The notes below the pieces were generated by a model, which saw only the letters and a program-made list of their open reading frames with translations, did not search any database and was not told the DNA's origin. The translations under genes were made by a program, and so were the position numbers. A stretch of DNA of 64,000 nt from Luteibacter jiangsuensis (lineage in GTDB: Bacteria; Pseudomonadota; Gammaproteobacteria; Xanthomonadales; Rhodanobacteraceae), in the NCBI RefSeq assembly GCF_011742555.1, contig NZ_JAAQQR010000003.1:434001-498000 (forward strand), written 5' to 3'. Each line of letters starts with the position of its first letter. The first letter of the stretch is position 1. Below are positions 47,566-57,522 of the stretch, piece by piece.

Positions 47566-47851
47566 GCGGGCTCGGCTTTGCCATCGGGTTGGCGCTCGTA
47601 TGTGGCGGCGGGAGCCCTCGGCTGTCGCCCTCGGCGCTACGCTGCGGTGTCGCTTGGGAAAGGAGGGCCGCTTCGCGGCCAGTGTCTGATGGCTTACGCC
47701 CCGGCGCGCACAGACGGTCGGCGGGGTTTTCCGACTCGACATCCATGTCTCGGCGGAAAAGGCCGGCCGTCCTGGCCGGCCCCCTGCGGGCCTCCTCCGC
47801 CGACCGTCCTCACCTCCGCTACCCGCGCCGAGGGCGACAGCCGAGGGCTCC
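47566..47851 (+). repeat. Long structured repeat, element A
   Basis: The closing stem is a perfect 26-bp inverted repeat (47611-47636 with 47826-47851; arm starts GGAGCCCTCGGCTGTCGCCC). Inside are hairpin H1 GGCCGC-TTC-GCGGCC (47666-47680) and hairpin H2 GCCGGCC-GTCCT-GGCCGGC (47762-47780). The about 45 bp before the stem are shared with element B. Unpaired parts such as GTGTCTGATGGCTT and TTTTCCGACTCG are conserved among copies. Confidence 0.9.
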
Positions 47852-47975
47852 TCCGGACACCGTATTGTGCAAGGAAAGCCAGCGCGTTCTTGTCGACGGC
47901 GGGACTTTGTTATTTATTTTTCGTTCGTCAGCCTTTTCTTCGGGAGCACCGAGCGCAGTAGATATTCCCGCCTTC

Positions 47976-48212
47976 TCACTTGCGCTCCTCCTGCGACAAC
48001 CGCTCGTACTCATCCCATTCCTTCATTTGTTCCGGGTAGTTGTTTCGCTCCTTCTCGCAATATGCGTCGAGCTTCGAAAGTGTTTCCTTGTCGGCACATC
48101 TAAAGAACGCGCCGATCGCGCAAATCGGTATCAGAGGCGATGGTTTGCTACCCGTGGAGACGATTCCACTGAGGTACGCAGCAATCCAGTGGAAGTGCCA
48201 GAAGCAAAGCAT
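47976..48212 (-). CDS. Possible small membrane protein in the low-GC interior between elements A and B
   Basis: This 78-residue frame from ATG 48212 starts MLCFWHFHWIAAYLSGIV, passes through a second hydrophobic stretch (SPLIPICAIGAFF) and ends in a highly charged helix (DKETLSKLDAYCEKERNN, EQMKEWDEYERLSQEERK). A TTG at 48269 would make it 97 residues. No ribosome site is evident. Base composition is clearly lower in GC than the flanks (27 of 60 bases at 47881-47940). The coding status is uncertain. Family unknown. Confidence 0.4.
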   Translation of the reverse strand: MLCFWHFHWIAAYLSGIVSTGSKPSPLIPICAIGAFFRCADKETLSKLDAYCEKERNNYPEQMKEWDEYERLSQEERK

Positions 48213-48340
48213 CGATAACGGGATGGCCGGCGTCACGCTGTGGGCGTGGAACCTAACGAAGAACGACAAGGCGTTTGCCGTTGGACGCCCGGTCAGGCCA
48301 GCTCGCGCTTTCCTCTCAAGCTAACTCAGCGCCACGAAGA

Positions 48341-48632
48341 GCCCTCGGCCGTTCCCCTCGGCGCGGGTAGCGGAGGTGAGGGCGGTTGGCGGATAAGGCC
48401 CGAAGGGGGCCGGCCAGGATGGCCGGCCTTTTCCGCCGAGACAGGGATGTCGAGTCGGAAAACCCCGCCGACCGTCCGTGCGCGCCGGGGCGCAAGCCAT
48501 AGGACATGGGCCACGCAGTGGCCCTCTTTGCCCAAGCGACACCGCAGCGTAGCGCTGAGGGGAGCGACCGAGGGCTCCCGCCGCCACGCCCCCAGGGCCA
48601 ACGCGATGGCGTAGCCGAGCCCCCGCAGCGGA
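48341..48632 (-). repeat. Long structured repeat, element B (inverted relative to A)
   Basis: The closing stem pairs 48341-48363 with 48553-48575 (20 of 23 positions by strict pairing). Its H1 is GGCCAC-GCA-GTGGCC (48507-48521), a compensatory variant of H1 in A. H2 matches that of A except in the loop. The upstream shoulder (48576-48632) matches the one in A. Confidence 0.9.
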
Positions 48633-48652
48633 CCTTTCGCAGAGCGTGAACG

Positions 48653-48684
48653 AAAAAAGGCCACGCTCTCGCGAGCGTGGCCTT
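48653..48684 (-). terminator. Terminator downstream of putA
   Basis: GGCCACGCTC and GAGCGTGGCC form a perfect 10-bp stem with a TCGC loop, followed on the minus strand by CCTTTTTTCG. It lies about 20 bp past the putA stop. Confidence 0.88.
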
Positions 48685-48704
48685 TGCTTTCCAGTGAGCG
48701 GGAT

Positions 48705-51700
48705 TTACTCGCCGATCGTCAGCAGCGACGCGTTGCCGCCTGCGGCCGTGGTGTTGACGGTGAGCGTGCGCTCGCCCGCGAAGCGGAGCAGGTAGTGCGG
48801 GCCGCCGGCCTTCGGGCCGGTGCCCGAGAGGCCTTCGCCACCGAACGGCTGCACGCCAACCACCGCGCCGATCTGATTGCGGTTGACGTAGCAGTTGCCG
48901 ACGCGGGCACGGCTCTGGATGAACTCGATGGTGTCGTCGATGCGGCTGTGCACGCCCAGCGTGAGACCGAAGCCCGTGCCGTTGATCTGGTCGACCACCT
49001 TCTCGAGCTCGGAACCCTTCCAGCGGATCACGTGCAGGACCGGGCCGAAGATCTCGCGGGTGAGCGTTGCCAGCGAAGGGATCTCGTAGGCGCGCGGTGC
49101 GAAGAACGTGCCGTGCGCCGTGCTTTCCGGCAGCGGCACTTCGGCGATCTTCTTCGCCTCGCGCTCCATGCGCTCGACGTGCTCGATGAGGATCTTGCGC
49201 GCGTCCTCGTCGATCACGGGGCCGACGTCGGTGGAGAGCAGGCCCGGATCGCCGACCTTCAGTTCCGCCATGGCACCGGCGAGCATGTCGATGACCTTGT
49301 CGGCGATGTCTTCCTGCACGAACAGCACGCGCGCGGCGGAGCAGCGCTGGCCGGCCGACTGGAACGCGGAGGCGATCACGTCCTTCACGATCTGCTCGGG
49401 CAGGGCGGAGGAGTCGGCGATCATGGCGTTCTGGCCGCCGGTCTCCGCCACCAGGGCGGCGATCGGCGCGTTGCGCGCGGCGAGCGCGCGGTTGATCGCC
49501 CAGGCGGTTTCCGTGGAGCCGGTGAAGGCCACGCCGGACACGCGCGGATCTCGGGTCAGCGCCGCACCCACGGTGGCGCCGTCGCCCGGCAGGTATTGCA
49601 GCACGTCGGCCGGGACGCCCGCGGCGTGCAGCAGCTTCACCGCCTCGTAGCCGATGAGCGAGGTCTGTTCCGCCGGCTTGGCGATCACCGAATTGCCGGC
49701 GGCGAGCGCTGCGGCCACCTGGCCGAGGAAGATGGCCAGTGGGAAGTTCCACGGGCTGATGCACACGAAGACGCCGCGCCCGTTGAGGAACAGCTGGTTG
49801 CTTTCGCCGGTGGGACCGGGGAGCTGCTCCGGCTGGCCGAACAGGCGGCGCGCCATGGTGGCGTAATAGCGCAGGAAGTCGGCGGCCTCGCGGATCTCGG
49901 CGATGGCGTCGGGCAGGCTCTTGCCCGCCTCGCGCACGCACAGCGCGATGAATTCGGCGCGGTTGTGCTCGAGCTGCTCGGCGGCATGCTCGAGGATCGC
50001 CGCGCGGCTCGCCGCCGGAAGGCGGTCCCAGCCCGGCTGCGCCTTCACGGCGGCGGCCAGTGCCTTGTCGACCATGCCCGCGTCGGCGTTCTCCACGGTG
50101 CCGACGATGCGGCGGCGATCGGAGGGATCGGTCACCTCGATCCTCGTGCCGGAGCCGGCGCCACCGGCGACCAGCGGCACGGCATTCCAGGGGCCGCTGT
50201 GGCGGTTCACGGCATCGGCGAGTTCGTTGAGCTCGTTGTCGTTAGCGAAGTTCATGCCCATGGAGTTCTTCCGAAGTTCACCGTAGAGATTGACCGGCAG
50301 GGGGATGCGCGGGTGGGGGATGGACGCGAAGCCGCGGACGATCTCGCACGGGTCGGCCACGAGGTCGCGCACCGGCACGCTCTCGTCCACCACGCGGTTC
50401 ACGAAGCTGGTGTTCGCGCCGTTTTCGAGCAGGCGGCGCACCAGGTAAGGCAGCAGGTCCTCGTGGCTGCCCACGGGGGCGTAGACGCGGCAGGGGACGT
50501 TGAGCTTGTCCTTGCCGATCACTTCCGCGTAGAGGTCGGCGCCCATGCCGTGCAGGCGCTGGTTTTCGTACGGACGGCCCTGGGCGATATGGTGGATCGC
50601 CGCGATGGTATGGGCGTTGTGCGTGGCGAACTGCGGATAGACCGCGTCCGTGCCGGCGGCGAACAGGCGGCGCGCGCAGGCGAGGTAGGAGACGTCGGTG
50701 TTGGGCTTGCGCGTGTACACCGGGTACCCGGACAGGCCGCCTTCCTGAGCACGCTTGATCTCGGCGTCCCAATAGGCGCCCTTCACCAGGCGCACGAACC
50801 AGCGGCGGCCCGTGGCACGGGCCTTTTCGGTCACCCAGTCGATGACGAACGGCGCGCGCTTCTGGTACGCCTGGATCACGATGCCGAGACCGTTCCAGCC
50901 TTCGAGCGACGGGTGTTCGAAGACGTCGCCGATGATGTCGAGCGAGAGCTCGAGCCGGTCGGCTTCCTCGGCGTCCACCGAGAGCGCGATGCCGTTCTTG
51001 AACGCGAGCTGCGAAAGCTCGAGGAGCTTCGCGCCGAGTTCGGCACGGGCGCGGGCGCGATTGCCCACCTCGTAGCGCGGGTGCAGCGCGGAAAGCTTCA
51101 CCGAGATCGACGGGGCTTCCAGGTTGTTCGGGAAGGGGCCGCGCGCGCCGAGCGCGTTGATGGCGTCGCGGTAGTCCTGCTGGTAGCGCTCCGCGGTGGC
51201 CTGGGTGAGGGCCGACTCGCCGAGCATGTCGTACGAATAACGGTAGACCGCGTGTTCCTTCTCGCTGGAGCGATCCAGTGCTTCCTTGATGGTGCGGCCC
51301 ATGACGAACTGGTGGCCCATGATCCGCATGGCCTGGCGCACGGCCAGTCGCACCACCGGCTCGCCCGCGCGGCCGACCAGGCGGCGCAGGGCGGACGTGA
51401 AGTCGTGACGGGTTTCCTCGGCGAGGTTCACCAGATGGCCGGTGAGCATCAGGCCCCACGTGGAGGCGTTGACGAACAGCGATTCGCTCTGGCCCAGGTG
51501 CTTCTTCCAGTCCGCTTCGCCGAGCTTGTCGCGGATGAGCTTGTCGGCCGTGGCCTTGTCGGGAATGCGCAGCAGCGCCTCGGCAACGCACATCAGCAGC
51601 ACGCCTTCCTCCGAGGAAAGGTCGTACTGGCGCATGAAGGATTCCACCGCGCTCTGGTCCTTGGCCCGCGCGCGAACGCGCGTGACGAGGCCGGCGGCCA

Positions 51701-51890
51701 CGTCGATGACTTTTTCGCGCTCGATCGGCGGTAACGTGGCCTGGGCCAGCAGGTCGTTCACGGCCTCGGTTTCGTCGCGCAGCCAGGCGGCCGTGATGCG
51801 CGCGCGTGCCGGCTCTGCGCCGGCCGGAAGTTCGGGACTGAGGATGGTCGGGTTCACGTGGGCGTGTGGGGGGCGAGGAAGACCGCCCAT
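48705..51890 (-). CDS. putA: Bifunctional proline dehydrogenase / delta-1-pyrroline-5-carboxylate dehydrogenase
   Basis: The protein is about 1061 residues. The N-terminal part holds the FAD-binding PRODH barrel (SVKLSALHPRYE, ...RLVKGAYWDAEIKRAQ, YPQFATHNAHT). The C-terminal part holds the aldehyde dehydrogenase domain (FVCISPWNFPLAIFLGQ, VAETGGQNAMIADSS, AGQRCSAARVLFVQE with the catalytic Cys). It oxidises proline to glutamate with channelling. Unlike E. coli PutA it lacks the N-terminal ribbon-helix-helix repressor domain and is far shorter than 1320 residues. The start is uncertain: ATG 51890 is chosen; GTG 51857 and TTG 51944 are alternatives. Confidence 0.93.
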   Translation of the reverse strand: MGGLPRPPHAHVNPTILSPELPAGAEPARARITAAWLRDETEAVNDLLAQATLPPIEREKVIDVAAGLVTRVRARAKDQSAVESFMRQYDLSSEEGVLLMCVAEALLRIPDKATADKLIRDKLGEADWKKHLGQSESLFVNASTWGLMLTGHLVNLAEETRHDFTSALRRLVGRAGEPVVRLAVRQAMRIMGHQFVMGRTIKEALDRSSEKEHAVYRYSYDMLGESALTQATAERYQQDYRDAINALGARGPFPNNLEAPSISVKLSALHPRYEVGNRARARAELGAKLLELSQLAFKNGIALSVDAEEADRLELSLDIIGDVFEHPSLEGWNGLGIVIQAYQKRAPFVIDWVTEKARATGRRWFVRLVKGAYWDAEIKRAQEGGLSGYPVYTRKPNTDVSYLACARRLFAAGTDAVYPQFATHNAHTIAAIHHIAQGRPYENQRLHGMGADLYAEVIGKDKLNVPCRVYAPVGSHEDLLPYLVRRLLENGANTSFVNRVVDESVPVRDLVADPCEIVRGFASIPHPRIPLPVNLYGELRKNSMGMNFANDNELNELADAVNRHSGPWNAVPLVAGGAGSGTRIEVTDPSDRRRIVGTVENADAGMVDKALAAAVKAQPGWDRLPAASRAAILEHAAEQLEHNRAEFIALCVREAGKSLPDAIAEIREAADFLRYYATMARRLFGQPEQLPGPTGESNQLFLNGRGVFVCISPWNFPLAIFLGQVAAALAAGNSVIAKPAEQTSLIGYEAVKLLHAAGVPADVLQYLPGDGATVGAALTRDPRVSGVAFTGSTETAWAINRALAARNAPIAALVAETGGQNAMIADSSALPEQIVKDVIASAFQSAGQRCSAARVLFVQEDIADKVIDMLAGAMAELKVGDPGLLSTDVGPVIDEDARKILIEHVERMEREAKKIAEVPLPESTAHGTFFAPRAYEIPSLATLTREIFGPVLHVIRWKGSELEKVVDQINGTGFGLTLGVHSRIDDTIEFIQSRARVGNCYVNRNQIGAVVGVQPFGGEGLSGTGPKAGGPHYLLRFAGERTLTVNTTAAGGNASLLTIGE

Positions 51891-52004
51891 TGTAGGGGAG
51901 CAAGCCCCTTCGTGTGTTATTGCGGGGGCTTGCGGATGCGACAACTTGTCCCCGGCATCCCTGGCGCCCTATCATCCCAATGTTCCAGGCACGCTTAGGC
52001 TCCC

Positions 52005-52487
52005 ATGATCGTGCTTCGACCGACCGCCGCGGGTCACCCGCGCGTGTTGTGGCTGCGGCCCAACCGTGCGCTGGACAGGCGCGGTCTGCGTCGACTGATC
52101 ATCGGCCTTGCGGCGATGGCCCTGGCGACGGCGACACTCGGTGCGTGGCAGGGGAACGTGTTCGCCCCCTTCTTCGCCCTGCTGGAGGCCTTCGTCGTGG
52201 GTTTCGCGCTTGGCGCGGCCTGGCGGGCCGGCGGCAGGGGTGAACGCATCGCGATCGGTCCGGACACGCTGGAGGTGCGTGCCGTGCCGGGACGTCGGAC
52301 GGTCCGCTTCCAGACATACTGGGTGCGGGTCGGGCTGAAACCGGGGGACGGACGACAGCGTCTGTTGCTCACGTCGCACGGCAACGAGCTGGAAATCGGG
52401 GCCTTCCTTGGGGAAGAGGAAAGGACCGAGGTGTCAAGGAAACTCATGGTGCTGCTGTCCGAAGTCTCTGGCCAGACGCGCAGGTAG
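52005..52487 (+). CDS. DUF2244 membrane protein upstream of coxB
   Basis: This 160-residue protein has two membrane helices (about residues 28-46 and 51-70), followed by a soluble beta-rich domain (RIAIGPDTLEVRAV, VRFQTYWVRVGLKP, LLLTSHGNELEIGAFLGEEE). This is the DUF2244 pattern. Family members sit next to cytochrome c oxidase genes, as here with a 20-bp gap to coxB. An assembly role is plausible but unproven. A TATCAT about 30 bp upstream of the ATG may be its -10 element. Confidence 0.85.
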   Translation: MIVLRPTAAGHPRVLWLRPNRALDRRGLRRLIIGLAAMALATATLGAWQGNVFAPFFALLEAFVVGFALGAAWRAGGRGERIAIGPDTLEVRAVPGRRTVRFQTYWVRVGLKPGDGRQRLLLTSHGNELEIGAFLGEEERTEVSRKLMVLLSEVSGQTRR

Positions 52488-52507
52488 GTTCAACAAAGGT
52501 GCAAGAC

Positions 52508-53416
52508 ATGACATCTGGCGGCATCGGACGATCTGTATCGGCGTGGGCGGCGGGCGCCTTCGCGCTGTTCGGGGGAGCGGCGTGGGCCAATCCCGAACCG
52601 AACCAGCTGAACATGACCAAGGGCGTGGCCGAGTGGTCGCCCTATGCCATGCACATGGTGGCCCTGTGGGTCTGCGTCGTGATCGGCATCGTCGTCTTCG
52701 GCGCCATGTTCATCGCGATGTTCCGCTTCCGTAAGTCGCGCGGCGCCGTCGCCGAGAAGTGGTCGCACAGCACCAAGCTCGAAGTGGTCTGGACGGTCAT
52801 CCCCGTCATCATCCTCATCTTCCTGGCCCACCTGGCCACCGGTGGCCTCACCTCGTTCGCCGACACCACGAATTCCGAGATGACCATCAAGGTCACCGGT
52901 TACCAGTGGAAGTGGCGCTACGACTACGTGGATTACAAAGGCAAGGGCGTCGACAAGGTCGGCTTCATGTCGAAGCTGGAGGAAACCTCCAACCGCACCC
53001 GCCAGCTGAAGTCCAATCTCGACCCGGCGAAGATCCAGGTCGACGGCTATTCCACGTACCTGCTCGACGTGGACAAGCCGCTGGTCGTTCCCACGGATAC
53101 CAAGATCCGCTTCGTCATCGTCGGCGGCGACGTCATCCACTCCTGGTGGGTGCCGGCGCTGGGCTGGAAGATGGACGCGATCCCGGGCATCGCCAACGCG
53201 GCCTGGACGAAGATCAAGGAGCCCGGTGTCTACCGCGGCCAGTGCGCCGAACTCTGCGGCCAGGACCACGGCTTCATGCCCATCGTGGTGAAGGCCGTGC
53301 CCAAGGCCGAGTTCGAACAGTGGCTGGCGGCGCAGGAAGACGAGGCCAAGGTGCAGAAGGCCGCGCAGACCGCGCAGACCGTCCAGGCAGCTCCCGCCCC
53401 GGCCCCCCAGGGTTAA
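52508..53416 (+). CDS. coxB: Cytochrome c oxidase subunit II
   Basis: This 302-residue protein has a signal-like N-terminus, two membrane helices (about residues 45-68 and 85-108), then the CuA cupredoxin domain. The CuA ligands are visible in VIHSWWVPALGWKMD and in RGQCAELCGQDHGFMPIVV. VTGYQWKWRYDY is the aromatic electron-entry patch. A 30-residue Ala/Gln/Pro tail follows. I chose the ATG at 52508, with AAAGG at proper spacing. No cytochrome c domain is fused. Confidence 0.96.
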   Translation: MTSGGIGRSVSAWAAGAFALFGGAAWANPEPNQLNMTKGVAEWSPYAMHMVALWVCVVIGIVVFGAMFIAMFRFRKSRGAVAEKWSHSTKLEVVWTVIPVIILIFLAHLATGGLTSFADTTNSEMTIKVTGYQWKWRYDYVDYKGKGVDKVGFMSKLEETSNRTRQLKSNLDPAKIQVDGYSTYLLDVDKPLVVPTDTKIRFVIVGGDVIHSWWVPALGWKMDAIPGIANAAWTKIKEPGVYRGQCAELCGQDHGFMPIVVKAVPKAEFEQWLAAQEDEAKVQKAAQTAQTVQAAPAPAPQG

Positions 53417-53443
53417 CCCGAACGTTTAGGTAGAGGTAAGGCC

Positions 53444-55057
53444 ATGGCGCACGCAGCCACCCACGACCACCACGATCACCACGGGGCCCCCAAGGGGTTC
53501 TTCCAGCGTTGGGTGATGTCCACGAACCACAAGGACATCGGCACGCTGTACCTGATCTTCTCGCTGACGATGTTCTTCATCGGCGGCGCCTTCGCGATGG
53601 TTATCCGCGCGGAGTTGTTCAAGCCGGGCATGCAGCTCGTGCAGCCGTATTTCTTCAATGAAATGACGACGATGCACGCGCTGGTGATGATCTTCGGCGC
53701 CATCATGCCGTCGTTCGTGGGCCTCGCGAACTGGATGATCCCGCTCATGGTCGGCGCGCCGGACATGGCGCTGCCGCGCATGAACAACCTGTCGTTCTGG
53801 ATCATGCCGTTCGCGTTCCTGCTCCTGCTGTCCACGCTGTTCATGCCCGGCGGCGGCCCGGCGGGCGGCTGGACGATGTATCCGCCGCTGTCGCTCCAGG
53901 GCGAGTCGGTGGCTTATGTGATCTTCGCCGTCCACCTCATGGGCATCAGCTCGATCATGGGCGCGATCAACATCATCGCCACCATCCTCAACATGCGCGC
54001 CCCGGGCATGGATCTGCTGAAGATGCCGGTGTTCGTGTGGAGCTGGCTGATCACGGCGTTCCTCCTGATCGCGGTGATGCCGGTGCTCGCGGGCGCCGTC
54101 ACCATGCTGCTGACGGACAAGTACTTCGGCACCAACTTCTTCAATGCCGCCGGCGGCGGCGACCCGGTGCTGTTCCAGCACATCTTCTGGTTCTTCGGGC
54201 ATCCCGAGGTCTACATCATGATCCTGCCGGCGTTCGGGATCATCTCGGAGATCATCCCCACCTTCGCCCGCAAGCCGATCTTCGGTTACCGCGCGATGGT
54301 GTTCGCCATCGCCTCCATCGCCTTCCTCTCGTTCATCGTCTGGGCGCACCACATGTTCGCCGTGGGCCTGCCGATGGGCGCCGAGATCTTCTTCATGTAC
54401 GCCACGATGCTGATCGCCGTGCCGACGGGCGTGAAGGTGTTCAACTGGGTGTCCACGATGTGGGGCGGCTCGATGACCTTCGAGACGCCGATGCTGTTCT
54501 CGATCGCCTTCGTGATCCTGTTCACCATCGGCGGTTTCTCGGGCCTCATGCTCGCGCTGGCCCCGGCGGACTTCCAGTACCACGACACGTACTTCGTGGT
54601 GGCGCACTTCCACTACGTGCTGGTGACCGGCGCCGCGTTCTCGATCATGGCCGCCGCGTATTACTGGCTGCCGAAGTGGTCGGGCAACATGTACAGCGAG
54701 ACCTGGGGCAAGATCCACTTCTGGTCGAGCGTCATCTCGGTCAACGTGCTGTTCTTCCCGCAGCACTTCCTGGGTCTTGCCGGCATGCCGCGCCGCATTC
54801 CGGACTACAACGTGGCCTTCGCCAACTTCAACATGATCAGCTCCATCGGCGGCTTCTGGTTCGGCGCCTCGCAGCTGATCTTCCTGGGCGTGGTCATCCA
54901 CTGCGTGTTCTTCTCGAAGAAGAAGGCGGCCGACCGCTCCTGGGAGGGCGCGAAGGGCCTGGAATGGACCGTGCCGTCGCCGGCGCCGTTCCATACGTTC
55001 GACGTGCCGCCGGTCATCCACGACGACGAACTCGCCCACGGCAACACGGAACACTGA
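53444..55057 (+). CDS. coxA: Cytochrome c oxidase subunit I
   Basis: This 537-residue protein has 12 membrane helices. The haem a and a3/CuB ligands are visible in TTMHALVMIFGA, WFFGHPEVYIMILPAFG (the His-Tyr cross-link region), WAHHMFAVGL and VVAHFHYVLVTGAAFS. The D-channel entrance and K-channel residues appear conventional for A-type oxidases. An N-terminal His-rich stretch (HAATHDHHDHHG) precedes FFQRWVMSTNHKDIG. It reduces O2 to water while pumping protons. Confidence 0.97.
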   Translation: MAHAATHDHHDHHGAPKGFFQRWVMSTNHKDIGTLYLIFSLTMFFIGGAFAMVIRAELFKPGMQLVQPYFFNEMTTMHALVMIFGAIMPSFVGLANWMIPLMVGAPDMALPRMNNLSFWIMPFAFLLLLSTLFMPGGGPAGGWTMYPPLSLQGESVAYVIFAVHLMGISSIMGAINIIATILNMRAPGMDLLKMPVFVWSWLITAFLLIAVMPVLAGAVTMLLTDKYFGTNFFNAAGGGDPVLFQHIFWFFGHPEVYIMILPAFGIISEIIPTFARKPIFGYRAMVFAIASIAFLSFIVWAHHMFAVGLPMGAEIFFMYATMLIAVPTGVKVFNWVSTMWGGSMTFETPMLFSIAFVILFTIGGFSGLMLALAPADFQYHDTYFVVAHFHYVLVTGAAFSIMAAAYYWLPKWSGNMYSETWGKIHFWSSVISVNVLFFPQHFLGLAGMPRRIPDYNVAFANFNMISSIGGFWFGASQLIFLGVVIHCVFFSKKKAADRSWEGAKGLEWTVPSPAPFHTFDVPPVIHDDELAHGNTEH

Positions 55058-55060
55058 CCG

Positions 55061-55186
55061 ATGCAGGGCACGACGGACATCGCCTTCGAGGCGCGCCGCA
55101 AGCGCGCCCGCCGTACCGCCCTGATAGCGGGCGGTTTCGCGGTGCTCGTGTTCGTGCTCTCCATCGTGCAGATGCTCAAGGCCTGA
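55061..55186 (+). CDS. 41-residue single-pass membrane peptide between coxA and coxC
   Basis: The peptide starts MQGTTDIAFEARRKRARRTA and continues into one hydrophobic helix (LIAGGFAVLVFVLSIVQML), ending KA. Three bases separate it from the coxA stop. Small single-helix proteins occur at this position in related cox operons, usually before ctaG (cox11). Here ctaG is missing and coxC follows after 33 bp. It may be an oxidase assembly or accessory subunit. Confidence 0.75.
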   Translation: MQGTTDIAFEARRKRARRTALIAGGFAVLVFVLSIVQMLKA

Positions 55187-55219
55187 CCGGCCAAACCAAG
55201 ATATCCACGGGAAACCACC

Positions 55220-56110
55220 ATGGGTCACCAGCAACAAGACGTCTACTTCGTACCGAGCAAGAGCTACTGGCCCATCGTGGCCGCGGTCTCCATGTTCGTC
55301 ACCGTGTTCGGTGCCGCGCATTGGCTGAACGCGCAGCCGGGACAAGGCGGTTTCGGCAAGCCGCTCTTCTGGGTCGGCATCGCCATGATCCTGGGCATGT
55401 TCTTCGGCTGGTTCCGCTCGGTGATCAACGAATCGATGGCCGGCAACTACAACGGCCAGGTGGACCGCTCGTTCCGCATGGGCATGATGTGGTTCATCTT
55501 CTCCGAAGTGATGTTCTTCGGCGCCTTCTTCGGCGCGCTGTTCTACGCCCGCATCTTCTCGGTGCCGTGGCTGGGTGGCGAAGGCCATGGCGTGCTCACC
55601 CACCAGTTCATCTGGCAGGGTTATGAAGCCGCATGGGGTGCCAGCGGCGGCGGCGGTCCGGACAAGATCGGCGGTGCGTTCCAGACGATCGGCGCCTGGG
55701 GTCTTCCGCTGCTCAACACGCTGATCCTGCTGTCCTCCGGCGTCACCATCACCATCGCGCACCACGCGCTCAAGGCCGGCCACCGCAAGGCGCTGCTGAT
55801 CGGCCTGGGCGCCACGGTGCTGCTGGGCTGCCTGTTCCTGTGGTTCCAGGCGCACGAGTACGCGGAAGCTTACGAGCACTTCAACCTGACGCTGGGCAGC
55901 GGTGTGTACGGCGCCACGTTCTTCATGCTCACGGGCTTCCACGGCATGCACGTGACCCTGGGCACGATCATGCTGGCGATCATCTGGGTCCGCTGCGCGA
56001 AGGGCCACTTCACGAAGGACGACCACTTCGGCTTCGAGGCCGTGGCGTGGTACTGGCACTTCGTCGACGTGGTCTGGCTGGCGCTCTTCCTCTTCGTCTA
56101 CGTGCTCTGA
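55220..56110 (+). CDS. coxC: Cytochrome c oxidase subunit III
   Basis: This 296-residue protein has seven membrane helices. Family segments are YFVPSKSYWPIVAAVSMF, GMMWFIFSEVMFFGAFFGAL, LLNTLILLSSGVTITIAHHA, FFMLTGFHGMHVTLGTIML and AVAWYWHFVDVVWLALFLFV. The carboxylate in SEVMFF is the DCCD-reactive Glu position. It stabilises subunit I during turnover. A strong terminator follows, so the operon as seen is DUF2244-coxB-coxA-41aa-coxC. Confidence 0.96.
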   Translation: MGHQQQDVYFVPSKSYWPIVAAVSMFVTVFGAAHWLNAQPGQGGFGKPLFWVGIAMILGMFFGWFRSVINESMAGNYNGQVDRSFRMGMMWFIFSEVMFFGAFFGALFYARIFSVPWLGGEGHGVLTHQFIWQGYEAAWGASGGGGPDKIGGAFQTIGAWGLPLLNTLILLSSGVTITIAHHALKAGHRKALLIGLGATVLLGCLFLWFQAHEYAEAYEHFNLTLGSGVYGATFFMLTGFHGMHVTLGTIMLAIIWVRCAKGHFTKDDHFGFEAVAWYWHFVDVVWLALFLFVYVL

Positions 56111-56118
56111 TCCGAAGA

Positions 56119-56143
56119 ACCCGCCGCAAGGCGGGTTTTTTTT
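56119..56143 (+). terminator. Rho-independent terminator of the cox operon
   Basis: ACCCGCC and GGCGGGT pair around GCAA, followed by eight or more T residues, beginning eight bases after the coxC stop. Confidence 0.93.
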
Positions 56144-56201
56144 GGGGGGCGTGCACTTCCGGGGGGACTGCGGCTTCGCTATTTGGCGCTTGCTGCATTC
56201 G

Positions 56202-56494
56202 CTTCGTAGGGTGGGCTCGCCTGTTCGGCCTCGCATCGGCGCCTGTGCCGTGGTCGGGAAGCCGGCAGCCGTCGCCCTCGCCGCGAAGGCTTACGTCGTT
56301 CCTTGCGAAGGGAGAGCCGCTACGCGGCTAGTGTCTTATGGCTTCGCCGCGGCGGACCCGGACGTCCGGGCGGGGGTTTCCGACTCGGCTTCCTGCCTCG
56401 GCGGAAACGGCGGGCCGTCCAGGCCCGCCCCCTGCGGGCCTTTTCCACCCGGTCGCCCTCGACTCCAGACATCGCGGCGAGGGCGACGGCTGCC
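56202..56494 (+). repeat. Long structured repeat, element C
   Basis: The closing stem is a perfect 23-bp inverted repeat (56264-56286 with 56472-56494; arm GGCAGCCGTCGCCCTCGCCG). H1 is AGCCGC-TAC-GCGGCT (56315-56329) and H2 is GCGGGCC-GTCCA-GGCCCGC; both are compensatory variants of those in A. The shoulder starts CTTCGTAGGGTGGGCTCGCC, shared with D. Confidence 0.9.
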
Positions 56495-56580
56495 AGCATC
56501 GGACGGTGCAGCGGGGTGTGGTGTTTGGTGCGTGGCTTGTGTTGTTTTGTCGGTCTGTGGCGACCGTCCGCGCTTGAGTC

Positions 56581-56618
56581 GCTGGGTGCCTGCTTTCGCA
56601 GGCACGACGGTGGGTGGA
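56581..56618. repeat. dRS3-like hairpin, copy 1
   Basis: GTGCCTGC-TTTC-GCAGGCAC with flanks GCTGGG and GACGGTGGGTGG. It is inverted relative to the copy at 56957. It resembles the widespread GTCATTCCCGC..GCGGGAAT class in form but has a different sequence. Confidence 0.75.
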
Positions 56619-56639
56619 GTCTCCCGCGCGTGGTGTACG

Positions 56640-56762
56640 TAGGAGCGCGCCCTGCGCGCGACAGCCTTTCGCACCAGTCCCCACGCTGGCGCGCCAGCTC
56701 CCAGGTTCGGCCCCAAAACATGTCGTACTCGACACGAGCATAAACGCGCAGGGCGCGCTCCT
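56640..56762. repeat. Family-2 palindromic repeat, copy 2
   Basis: The ends AGGAGCGCGCCCTGCGCG and CGCGCAGGGCGCGCTCCT are perfect inverted repeats. The interior has CTGGCGCGCCAG and ATGTCGTACTCGACACGAGC. It is closely similar to the copy at 62972. Confidence 0.9.
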
Positions 56763-56805
56763 GCCATGCTCCCATCCACACGAGAGACGATTCGCGCCGC
56801 TCTCT

Positions 56806-56930
56806 GTGGGAGCCGGCTATGCCGGCGATCCCGCGGCAGCGGGCACTCTCGCGAGCACCCATCGCCGCTGAAGCGGCTCCCACACAAAGCGAAGCGGCTC
56901 ACACACAAAGCGAAGCGGCTCACACAAAGA
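56806..56930. repeat. REP doublet with a degenerate tandem end
   Basis: The core at 56806-56883 runs from GTGGGAGCCGGCTATGCCGG to CGCTGAAGCGGCTCCCAC. The sequence CACACAAAGCGAAGCGGCT then repeats with small changes to 56930, apparently slipped copies of the REP end. Confidence 0.88.
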
Positions 56931-56956
56931 GCGCGATGCGACAGTCTCGCAGCGCC

Positions 56957-56994
56957 CCACCTACCGTCGTGCCTGCGAAAGCAGGCACCCAGCG
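56957..56994. repeat. dRS3-like hairpin, copy 2 (inverted)
   Basis: CCACCTACCGTCGTGCCTGC-GAAA-GCAGGCACCCAGCG is the reverse complement of the 56581 copy with two differences in the flank. Confidence 0.75.
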
Positions 56995-57090
56995 CCCCGG
57001 TCGGCAAGAGACGAAAGCAAACCATCGACTCGCGCTTCGCTCTCCCAACGCGCGCTTCGCTCTCCCAACAGGAACCCGCACCGTCCGTCG

Positions 57091-57305
57091 CCAGTACCCG
57101 TTCCCCTCGCCGCGATGTCTGGAGTCGAAGACCCCCGCACGGACGCTCGGGTCCGCCGCGGCGAAGCCATAAGACACGAGCCGCGAAGCGGCTCTCCTTT
57201 CGCAAGGAACGACGTAAGTCTTCGCGGCGAGGGGAACGGGTACTGGCTCCCAGACAACGACACAGGCGCCGCGTGCGAGGCCGAAGGCGAGCCCACCCTA
57301 CGAAG
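57091..57305 (-). repeat. Long structured repeat, element D (deleted form, inverted relative to C)
   Basis: The closing stem is a perfect 25-bp inverted repeat (57091-57115 with 57222-57246; arm CCAGTACCCGTTCCCCTCGC). H1 at 57179-57193 matches H1 in C with a changed loop. The H2 region is absent, consistent with deletion between two CGACTC copies that are both present in C. The shoulder to 57305 matches C. Confidence 0.9.
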
Positions 57306-57355
57306 CGAACCTCACACTGACTCCACGCTGCGCTCAGCCCTGAAATACGGAAGAA

Positions 57356-57393
57356 CAAAAAAAAGCCCCGAGAGCCAGGGGAGCTCTCGGGGC
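57356..57393 (-). terminator. Strong rho-independent terminator, minus strand
   Basis: GCCCCGAGAGC and GCTCTCGGGGC form a perfect 11-bp stem; on the minus strand eight T residues follow. It would end a transcript coming from the polA side, or the candidate small RNA. Confidence 0.92.
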
Positions 57394-57522
57394 CCGGAGG
57401 ACGACCGGACCCAGGGGAAGATCGGGCCGTCCGCAGGGTGACTCCAGGGAGGTGGAGTCCACCGATGGGACGCCGTTGCGTGCGTCCGTATGTATTGACG
57501 TTTGGGCGGGCCGGAAGTTGCA
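57356..57522 (-). ncRNA. Candidate small RNA downstream of polA
   Basis: A non-coding stretch of about 165 nt is bounded by a strong terminator. On the minus strand it contains the hairpin GGTGGACTCCA-CCTCCC-TGGAGTCACC (57463-57437), whose loop CCUCCC could pair with Shine-Dalgarno sequences. A weak promoter (TTTACT at 57558-57553, 18 bp, TCCAAT at 57534-57529) could start it. A position near polA recalls enterobacterial Spot 42 and pseudomonad ErsA, but no sequence identity is claimed. It may instead be the 3'UTR of polA. Confidence 0.45.

Follow-up and report, generated by a model that had tools for sequence, protein, structure and literature searches.

A dispersed inverted-pair repeat of Luteibacter with GGA-loop hairpins, a candidate RsmA/CsrA-binding element

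A 64,000 nucleotide (nt) stretch of the Luteibacter jiangsuensis genome (NZ_JAAQQR010000003.1, positions 434,001 to 498,000), referred to here as the window, carries four long structured elements, A, B, C and D, whose closing stems differ in sequence between copies and remain paired. The question raised by this locus is what these elements are, and whether their matched stems are kept at the level of RNA or of DNA. Each appears to be one half of a repeat unit that is dispersed through the genome and kept by vertical descent. The unit is an inverted heterodimer, with half-type 1 and half-type 2 on either side of a spacer, and lies downstream of genes and partly against an intrinsic terminator. 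The best reading, held tentatively and at somewhat less than even confidence, is a concertedly evolving repeat carrying RsmA/CsrA-type hairpins, with a predicted role in RsmA/CsrA control. This reading is supported because the stems vary in a matched way while the loops keep GGA on one strand only.

Direct reading and repeat comparison find the four elements where an earlier note on this DNA had placed them, with the H1 and H2 sequences it quoted, and so confirm its observation. The layout is corrected here: A and B form an inverted pair whose 3' ends face each other, and so do C and D. Unit 1 (positions 47566-48622, no strand assigned) consists of element A (47612-47850, + strand) and its partner B (48339-48577, - strand), both complete, with nhmmer scores of 194.8 and 188.0 bits. 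The 252-nt arms of this unit are 89% complementary and 482 nt apart. The second inverted pair, unit 2 (56144-57356, no strand assigned), consists of element C (56260-56497, + strand, 191.4 bits), which is complete and of half-type X, and element D (57090-57249, - strand) of half-type Y. In the predicted fold each complete half shows a closing stem (P1), a hairpin (H1) and an inner domain, a stem (P2) that encloses two hairpins (H3 and H4); the strand read outward from the spacer mostly exposes GGA loops. D lacks P2, H3 and H4, matches the family model at model positions 1-139 (nhmmer match 57108-57249) and folds without a GGA loop. The shared internal layout noted earlier holds for A, B and C and not for D. 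The closing stems pair at 26/26 positions in A, 23/23 in C and 25/25 in D, as had been claimed, and B shows the three mismatches reported for it, with 23/26 positions paired (88%). Compared with dinucleotide shuffles, the folds give z = -6.6 for A and -4.4 for C as RNA and -5.7 for D as DNA, and 0 of 200 shuffles is as good as the native fold for each of these three.

A total of 203 elements in 134 units were collected from the fetched stretches (genomes and loci are designated by G and L numbers). Copies were taken from the best matches listed per genome, with 12 candidates scored in each, so that sharing and copy numbers are lower bounds. Among the 203, 162 are complete and score above 100 bits; 159 are distinct and 117 remain under 96% identity. 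One (L114:1384-1655) was excluded for length, leaving 116 aligned copies from 19 genomes, 18 of Luteibacter and one of Pinirhizobacter. The orientation within pairs is nearly fixed: 68 of 69 neighboring pairs within 1.6 kb are +-, with 3' ends facing, and one is --, some partners being weak matches (17-40 bits). All 22 pairs typeable by half-type are heterodimers, in either order (4 in G000, 8 in G022, 5 in G010, 3 in G018 and 2 in G007); the half-type motifs were picked after the tree had been seen, partners below 60 bits were excluded and four A-type pairs were left unsubdivided. Because the typed pairs are all heterodimers, copying or conversion probably acts on the whole unit and not on single halves. 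Units measure about 0.4-1.7 kb and their spacers 75 to 1187 nt. C-type spacers contain palindromes resembling repetitive extragenic palindromic (REP) sequences. The A-type spacer of L009 displays two small open frames by eye, neither of which was called by a composition-based gene caller. This spacer (L009:3966-5152) belongs to the second of the A-type pairs in G000, and the orthologous G022 pair has a shorter spacer with which it shares no long match; an exchange of cargo is possible. In G015, 4 of 7 units shown (L107, L108, L109, L110) have, by eye, another palindromic structure with stem GGCCGGGTTGGCCCTTGGGGCC / GGCCCCAAGGGCCAACCCGG in place of the far-half element.

DNA searches with C and with A each gave matches in 20 of 23 Luteibacter genomes (none in G012, G013 and G014 with C; none in G012, G013 and G020 with A), in 5/14 (C) and 6/14 (A) other genomes of the family, and in 0/24 genomes of other families of the order. 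A strict pattern run over GTDB genome contigs matched 19 stretches, all in Luteibacter or Pinirhizobacter. The covariance-model search of Rhodanobacteraceae suggested in the earlier note was made with model R1, which covers H1 and the inner domain (142 positions, 30 sequences). At E <= 0.001, R1 matches 101 of 147 family genomes and 23 of 26 genera, with rough E-values and a search within the family only. Run on 18 stretches (200 kb), it gave nine matches, all at places already matched by DNA searches or comparisons. Carriage by plasmids or phages was considered and set aside, as a plasmid search with A, a phage search with C and an IMG/VR search with the strict pattern yielded no matches. A literature search on Luteibacter intergenic or repetitive elements, REP doublets forming hairpins (REPINs), intergenic palindromes and CsrA with repeats yielded, among the papers listed and as judged by titles or abstract openings, no report on this element.

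The conserved feature of the inner domain is the GGA loop. In A, H3 (47727-47760, - strand) has the loop ATCCAT on the + strand, which is ATGGAT on the opposite strand (GACATGGATGTC), and H4 (47761-47781, - strand) has GTCCT, which is AGGAC on the opposite strand. H3 of B reads GACAGGGATGTC, and H3 and H4 of C (56376-56429, - strand) have the opposite-strand loops AGGAA and TGGAC. The complete elements A, B and C each carry two GGA-loop hairpins. Among the 116 copies, opposite-strand loops contain GGA in 109 (H3) and 102 (H4), with 0.32 and 0.17 expected from shuffled loop letters, and on the element's own strand, the one read in the earlier note, no H3 or H4 loop does. The loops are mostly AGGA or TGGA, and a strict AYGGAY is found in a minority. 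The sequence ACARGGATGT, a CsrA consensus, is present on the opposite strand of 7/116 copies and on the other strand of none. Across 310 kb of the window and other stretches, both strands, it occurs once, as ACAGGGATGT in H3 of B (48441-48450, + strand, which is the opposite strand of B). The exact consensus is rare; the GGA loop is general. Five loci from other genera were folded (L077, L047, L076, L078 and L079); by eye, their stems differ and both loops carry GGA on the opposite strand.

A stem around two adjacent GGA-type hairpins on one strand is also the architecture of the Rfam family TwoAYGGAY (RF01731). Alignment to the Rfam model shows the enclosing stem round two hairpins to be present in the element. 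In 29 scanned loci (28 sites, L037 and L138 being one; E limits 1, 5 and 10), TwoAYGGAY gives six matches at the inner domain in five loci (L131, L045, L079, L073 in both halves, and L143), at 33.0-39.4 bits and all on the opposite strand. All are below the gathering score, and most loops read AGGA or TGGA and so depart from a strict AYGGAY. The domain here also sits inside a 240-nt closed element that is present in inverted pairs and many copies. Thus the element would work like TwoAYGGAY and may be related, but it is not called a member. The earlier note recognized no named family. Within the window no Rfam family scores as high as its gathering score, but on the opposite strand the inner domain resembles TwoAYGGAY, so that the element is not wholly without a named likeness. 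A weak match to rsmX, of the same Rfam clan (CL00106), is found on the opposite strand of L155 (22.7 bits, E 3.5).

Other RNA genes lie near elements in two loci. In G004 only 87 bases separate the start of an element from the 5' end of the gene for RNase P RNA (L131:1112-1478, - strand; RF00010, 314.7 bits). In G020 a C4 antisense RNA at L045:982-1071 (+ strand), about 0.4 kb from an element match, scores 60.8 bits and thus exceeds its gathering score of 45.

A function has been put forward for TwoAYGGAY by Gardner and Eldai, who propose it as CsrA-binding (PMC4333381). The 2010 survey describes the motif as probably RNA and probably not cis-regulatory, and its function as unknown there (PMC2864571). 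The GGA-loop hairpins are also a likeness to the Csr/Rsm RNAs (CsrB, RsmX/Y/Z and RsmU). According to a Xanthomonas study, BLAST found no CsrB/RsmZ homologue there, and an RsmA-binding RNA, RsmU, is made from a 3' untranslated region, that is, likewise from a 3' region (PMC7694677). The element differs from these RNAs in being a dispersed repeat rather than a single gene and in having only two conserved GGA loops per half. The E. coli rrA/rrB/rrF RNAs offer another comparison. As described in PMC8144298, they are near-identical copies just past a terminator, made by read-through and interacting with CsrA. They are, however, tied to rRNA operons, no inverted pairs are reported for them there, and deleting them altered CsrA-regulated traits only modestly.

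Transcription by read-through across a complete pair, for example, would always put one half in the GGA orientation. On the reading proposed here, RNA from transcribed elements would bind RsmA/CsrA, as proposed for TwoAYGGAY and known for Rsm RNAs. Because transcribed copies would bind the protein, the copies might jointly serve as a decoy spread over the genome, or mark the 3' ends of neighboring transcripts.

The paired stem changes first seen between the four copies hold in the alignment of 116. Over 56 pairs, 96.9% of cells are paired (82.2% shuffled), 44 pairs have changed on both sides (29.2 shuffled), and the covariation score is 0.403 (0.128 shuffled, 0.085 at most when slid). The main closing helix has 18 pairs, every one of which shows changes on both sides. 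In P2, H3 and H4, 94.4, 98.9 and 96.8% of cells are paired, which points to an enclosing stem around two hairpins. P1, H1, H3 and H4 together comprise 43 pairs, a set that excludes P2 and weak pairs; of their 4978 cells, 4854 are Watson-Crick, 67 are A-C, 20 are G-T and 37 are other. G-U thus makes up 0.40% of these cells on the element's own strand. Over all alifold pairs of the element it is 2.2% on the + strand and 1.5% (1.54%) on the - strand. Mismatches favor the opposite strand, with 46 genome-column events (A.C on + being G.U on -) versus 15 (p = 9e-5), and the opposite strand folds at least as stably in 97/116 copies.

Several observations weigh against a role of the element through RsmA/CsrA. 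On the opposite, favored strand G-U is found in only 1.35% of cells of the 43 pairs. It is more frequent in the RNase P RNA of 23 Luteibacter genomes, where it amounts to 5.1% with the Rfam structure, a control in which 9.7% of cells are neither Watson-Crick, G-U nor A-C and some misalignment is indicated, and to 6.8% with alifold. Unpaired columns show an excess of G>A over C>T (0.126 vs 0.074 per opportunity). Because they share part of the bias, the wobble asymmetry is structural only in part, and it is weakened as proof of an RNA strand. The GGA loop is not uniform: G032 has it in only 2/8 copies at each loop and G001 in 2/10 at H4, while G016 has it in 4/5 at H3. None of the 29 loci reaches the TwoAYGGAY gathering score of 43 bits, the best being 39.4 and none being in the window, and the window's own copies (L055, L025) give no match even below threshold. 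Promoters in the spacers were considered and dropped, as sigma-70-like promoters are no more frequent there than in shuffled letters. The 1.46 Mb of sequence fetched contained no csrA, although no genome-wide search for it was made. GGA loops alone are weak proof of RsmA binding, because RsmU with all four GGA motifs changed kept RsmA binding and effect, although the loop changes reduced complex size (PMC7694677).

The main rival explanation, which we consider quite possible though short of probable, is a DNA-level mobile or repetitive element of REPIN-like layout. Its hairpins in single-stranded DNA or cruciforms would be recognized by an enzyme, its matched arms would be maintained either through such recognition or through template switching from one arm to the other, and RNA would be irrelevant. 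The near-perfect Watson-Crick stems with few G-U pairs agree with this. So does the finding that both-sided changes are as common as one-sided changes in the closest copies of the same genome: 10 versus 9 below 3% unpaired divergence (5 copy pairs) and 118 versus 97 at 3-6% (65 copy pairs). Sequential compensation alone would yield more one-sided steps at such distances, and templated change or exchange of sub-type blocks is a real alternative. Both the few G-U pairs and the both-sided changes would agree with a palindrome constraint on DNA, with change templated by the other arm or with an exchange of blocks among copies. Thus the earlier suggestion of selection on a folded RNA or single-stranded DNA stands as to covariation, but the matched arms need not imply selection on RNA. 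The inverted-pair unit with outer inverted repeats, the nested REPs and the lack of a promoter excess also favor a DNA-level element. Such an element does not, however, predict GGA on one strand in both loops.

Outer repeats are seen in both units of the window. In unit 1 an outer motif, GGGCTCGGCTTTGCC..., is found at either end by direct reading and repeat comparison. In unit 2 the outer inverted repeat of C (TTCGCTTCGTAGGGTGGGCTCGCCT, 56198-56222, + strand) is 100% complementary to that of D (57285-57309, - strand). The unit 2 spacer (56580-56994, no strand assigned) is built of REP-like palindromes, 56580-56617/56957-56994, 56641-56658/56745-56762 and 56793-56815/56874-56896. GTGG-type REPs resembling these flank, by eye, the REP-associated transposase (RAYT) gene in L164. 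The element is like a REPIN in that a palindromic module occurs twice, in inverted orientation, on either side of a spacer. The module, however, is about 240 nt long with internal branches rather than a short REP, its halves are of two distinct types, and it is not beside a RAYT in the four loci read.

No cognate transposase was found for the element, which counts against a DNA-level mobile origin. Of 23 genomes, 22 carry RAYT (Y1_Tnp) genes: 20 have a single copy, G012 has two and G013 has three. Among 25 places found, the four loci read (L164, L223, L227 and L225) lie at a single conserved site that has short REPs but lacks the element, and G012 and G013 have RAYTs without any element match. 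RAYT was therefore rejected as the mobilizer, given its conserved locus and only short REPs in these four loci. By eye, the RAYT gene there sits between dihydrolipoamide-dehydrogenase-like and permease-like genes, and the GTGG/GTAG-type REPs vary between species. The outer end GTTCTTCRCG, which resembles ISL3 ends, led to a test of ISL3, the sole autonomous partner tested for an origin as a miniature inverted-repeat transposable element. An ISL3 origin was dropped, the own genome yielding a single match, below cut-off. Clean empty sites with target duplications were also sought. Homology overlaps of about 4 bases were found at two sites, which hold outer-arm remnants rather than clean empty sites, and no clean target-site duplication was seen. 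At a fourth candidate empty site (L092 vs L272) the left flank alone matched.

The position of the units relative to genes bears on another explanation, a back-up terminator, 3'-end stabilizer or insulator between convergent genes, in which any stable fold rather than protein binding would be selected. Placed with a codon-composition gene caller, 56 units are convergent, 50 tandem and 4 divergent (110 of 134 scored, 24 not scored for orientation). Background junctions of at least 100 base pairs, from the window and 13 G000/G022 stretches, are 25, 49 and 19 (n = 93); units are more often convergent (Fisher p = 6e-4) and less often divergent (p = 2e-4). Single elements have their 5' end facing a gene 3' end in 43 of 52. 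Terminators read into the element at 45 of 169 flanks and away from it at 9. This pattern is what a terminator or insulator would show, but any 3'-biased repeat would give it as well, the terminator scan finds no terminator reading in at 124 of 169 flanks, and conserved loops would be unneeded. Such a role is improbable.

Unit 2 is a case in which both boundaries lie at T-tracts, as it fills the gap between those of two convergent intrinsic terminators, one on the cox3 side and one on the polA side (gene names by eye). The homology of the polA flank in G022, G002, G008 and G012 ends at 57356-57358, within two bases of the polA-side T-tract. Stretches beyond polA in these four relatives show no cox3 match, and by eye no unit like C-D is found in the 590 bases after cox3 in G008, G012 and G002. 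Because of these three findings, a rearrangement is suggested to have used unit 2. Adjoining polA, window positions 57359-57477 (- strand) give a sub-threshold match to the Xanthomonadaceae small RNA sX13 (37.7 bits, gathering 50, E 0.0004); the terminator T-tract at this match is the outer boundary of unit 2.

The history of the copies bears on whether the element is an ordinary selfish intergenic repeat without function, whose conservation would be only apparent and due to recent amplification. The copy tree clusters by genome (31 label changes vs 89.8 shuffled), as such a repeat would, except that G000, which shares sub-types with G022, is barely clustered (11 vs 12.6). When a match of at least one flank is required, shared sites form 22 groups that take in 66 of the 134 units. 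Both flanks match for at least one pair in 12 of these groups, and one group joins five species with both flanks matching in all 10 comparisons. The orthologues of unit 1 are a pair in G022 (L056) and a single element in G002 (L057). Site-mates of distant species are 64-83% identical (18 comparisons), whereas unlinked copies of the same genome have median identities of 88-97%, except in G008 (sole other copy 67%) and G019 (no other copy). Nine comparisons among the closely related G000, G002 and G022 give site-mates at 88-97%, about equal to nearest paralogues at 90-98%. The copies of one genome mostly stay similar as species move apart, as whole-unit conversion or re-amplification would bring about; concerted evolution is not fully separable from recurrent use of the same sites.

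Some units have collapsed to their outer arms. Three sites occupied in G022 are shrunk in G000 to outer-arm remnants (L269, L270 and L024), as expected for a long imperfect palindrome. These remnants, with the clustering by genome, favor a selfish repeat, but the architecture and loops persist across species, in copies 64-83% identical, and across genera, and a selfish repeat without function is very improbable. One orthologous site holds differing sub-types in G000 and G022 (L012, L275). At L275:4380-5200, G022 has, by eye, a unit of the G010/G007 sub-type where G000 has a C-type unit; it shows a closing stem and H1, apparently without the inner domain, and no R1 match.

These copies are a clear case of dispersed non-coding repeats that are alike within a genome at sites common to several species. 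They also carry the warning that covariation alone cannot separate selection on RNA from upkeep of a DNA palindrome. A wider proposal, rather unlikely as it stands, is that a bacterial family spreads an RsmA/CsrA antagonist as a repeat. Tens of heterodimeric pairs would give GGA hairpins from either side of read-through, the repeat population rather than one small RNA gene would tune global translational control, and TwoAYGGAY would be the widespread core. Apart from this proposal, the element joins intergenic palindromic repeats with the Csr/Rsm system, two subjects usually kept apart. It gives a concrete candidate for an RsmA antagonist in relatives of Xanthomonas, where the RsmU study found no CsrB/RsmZ homologue (PMC7694677), and gives TwoAYGGAY, listed in the 2010 survey as a motif of unknown function (PMC2864571), a testable genomic setting.

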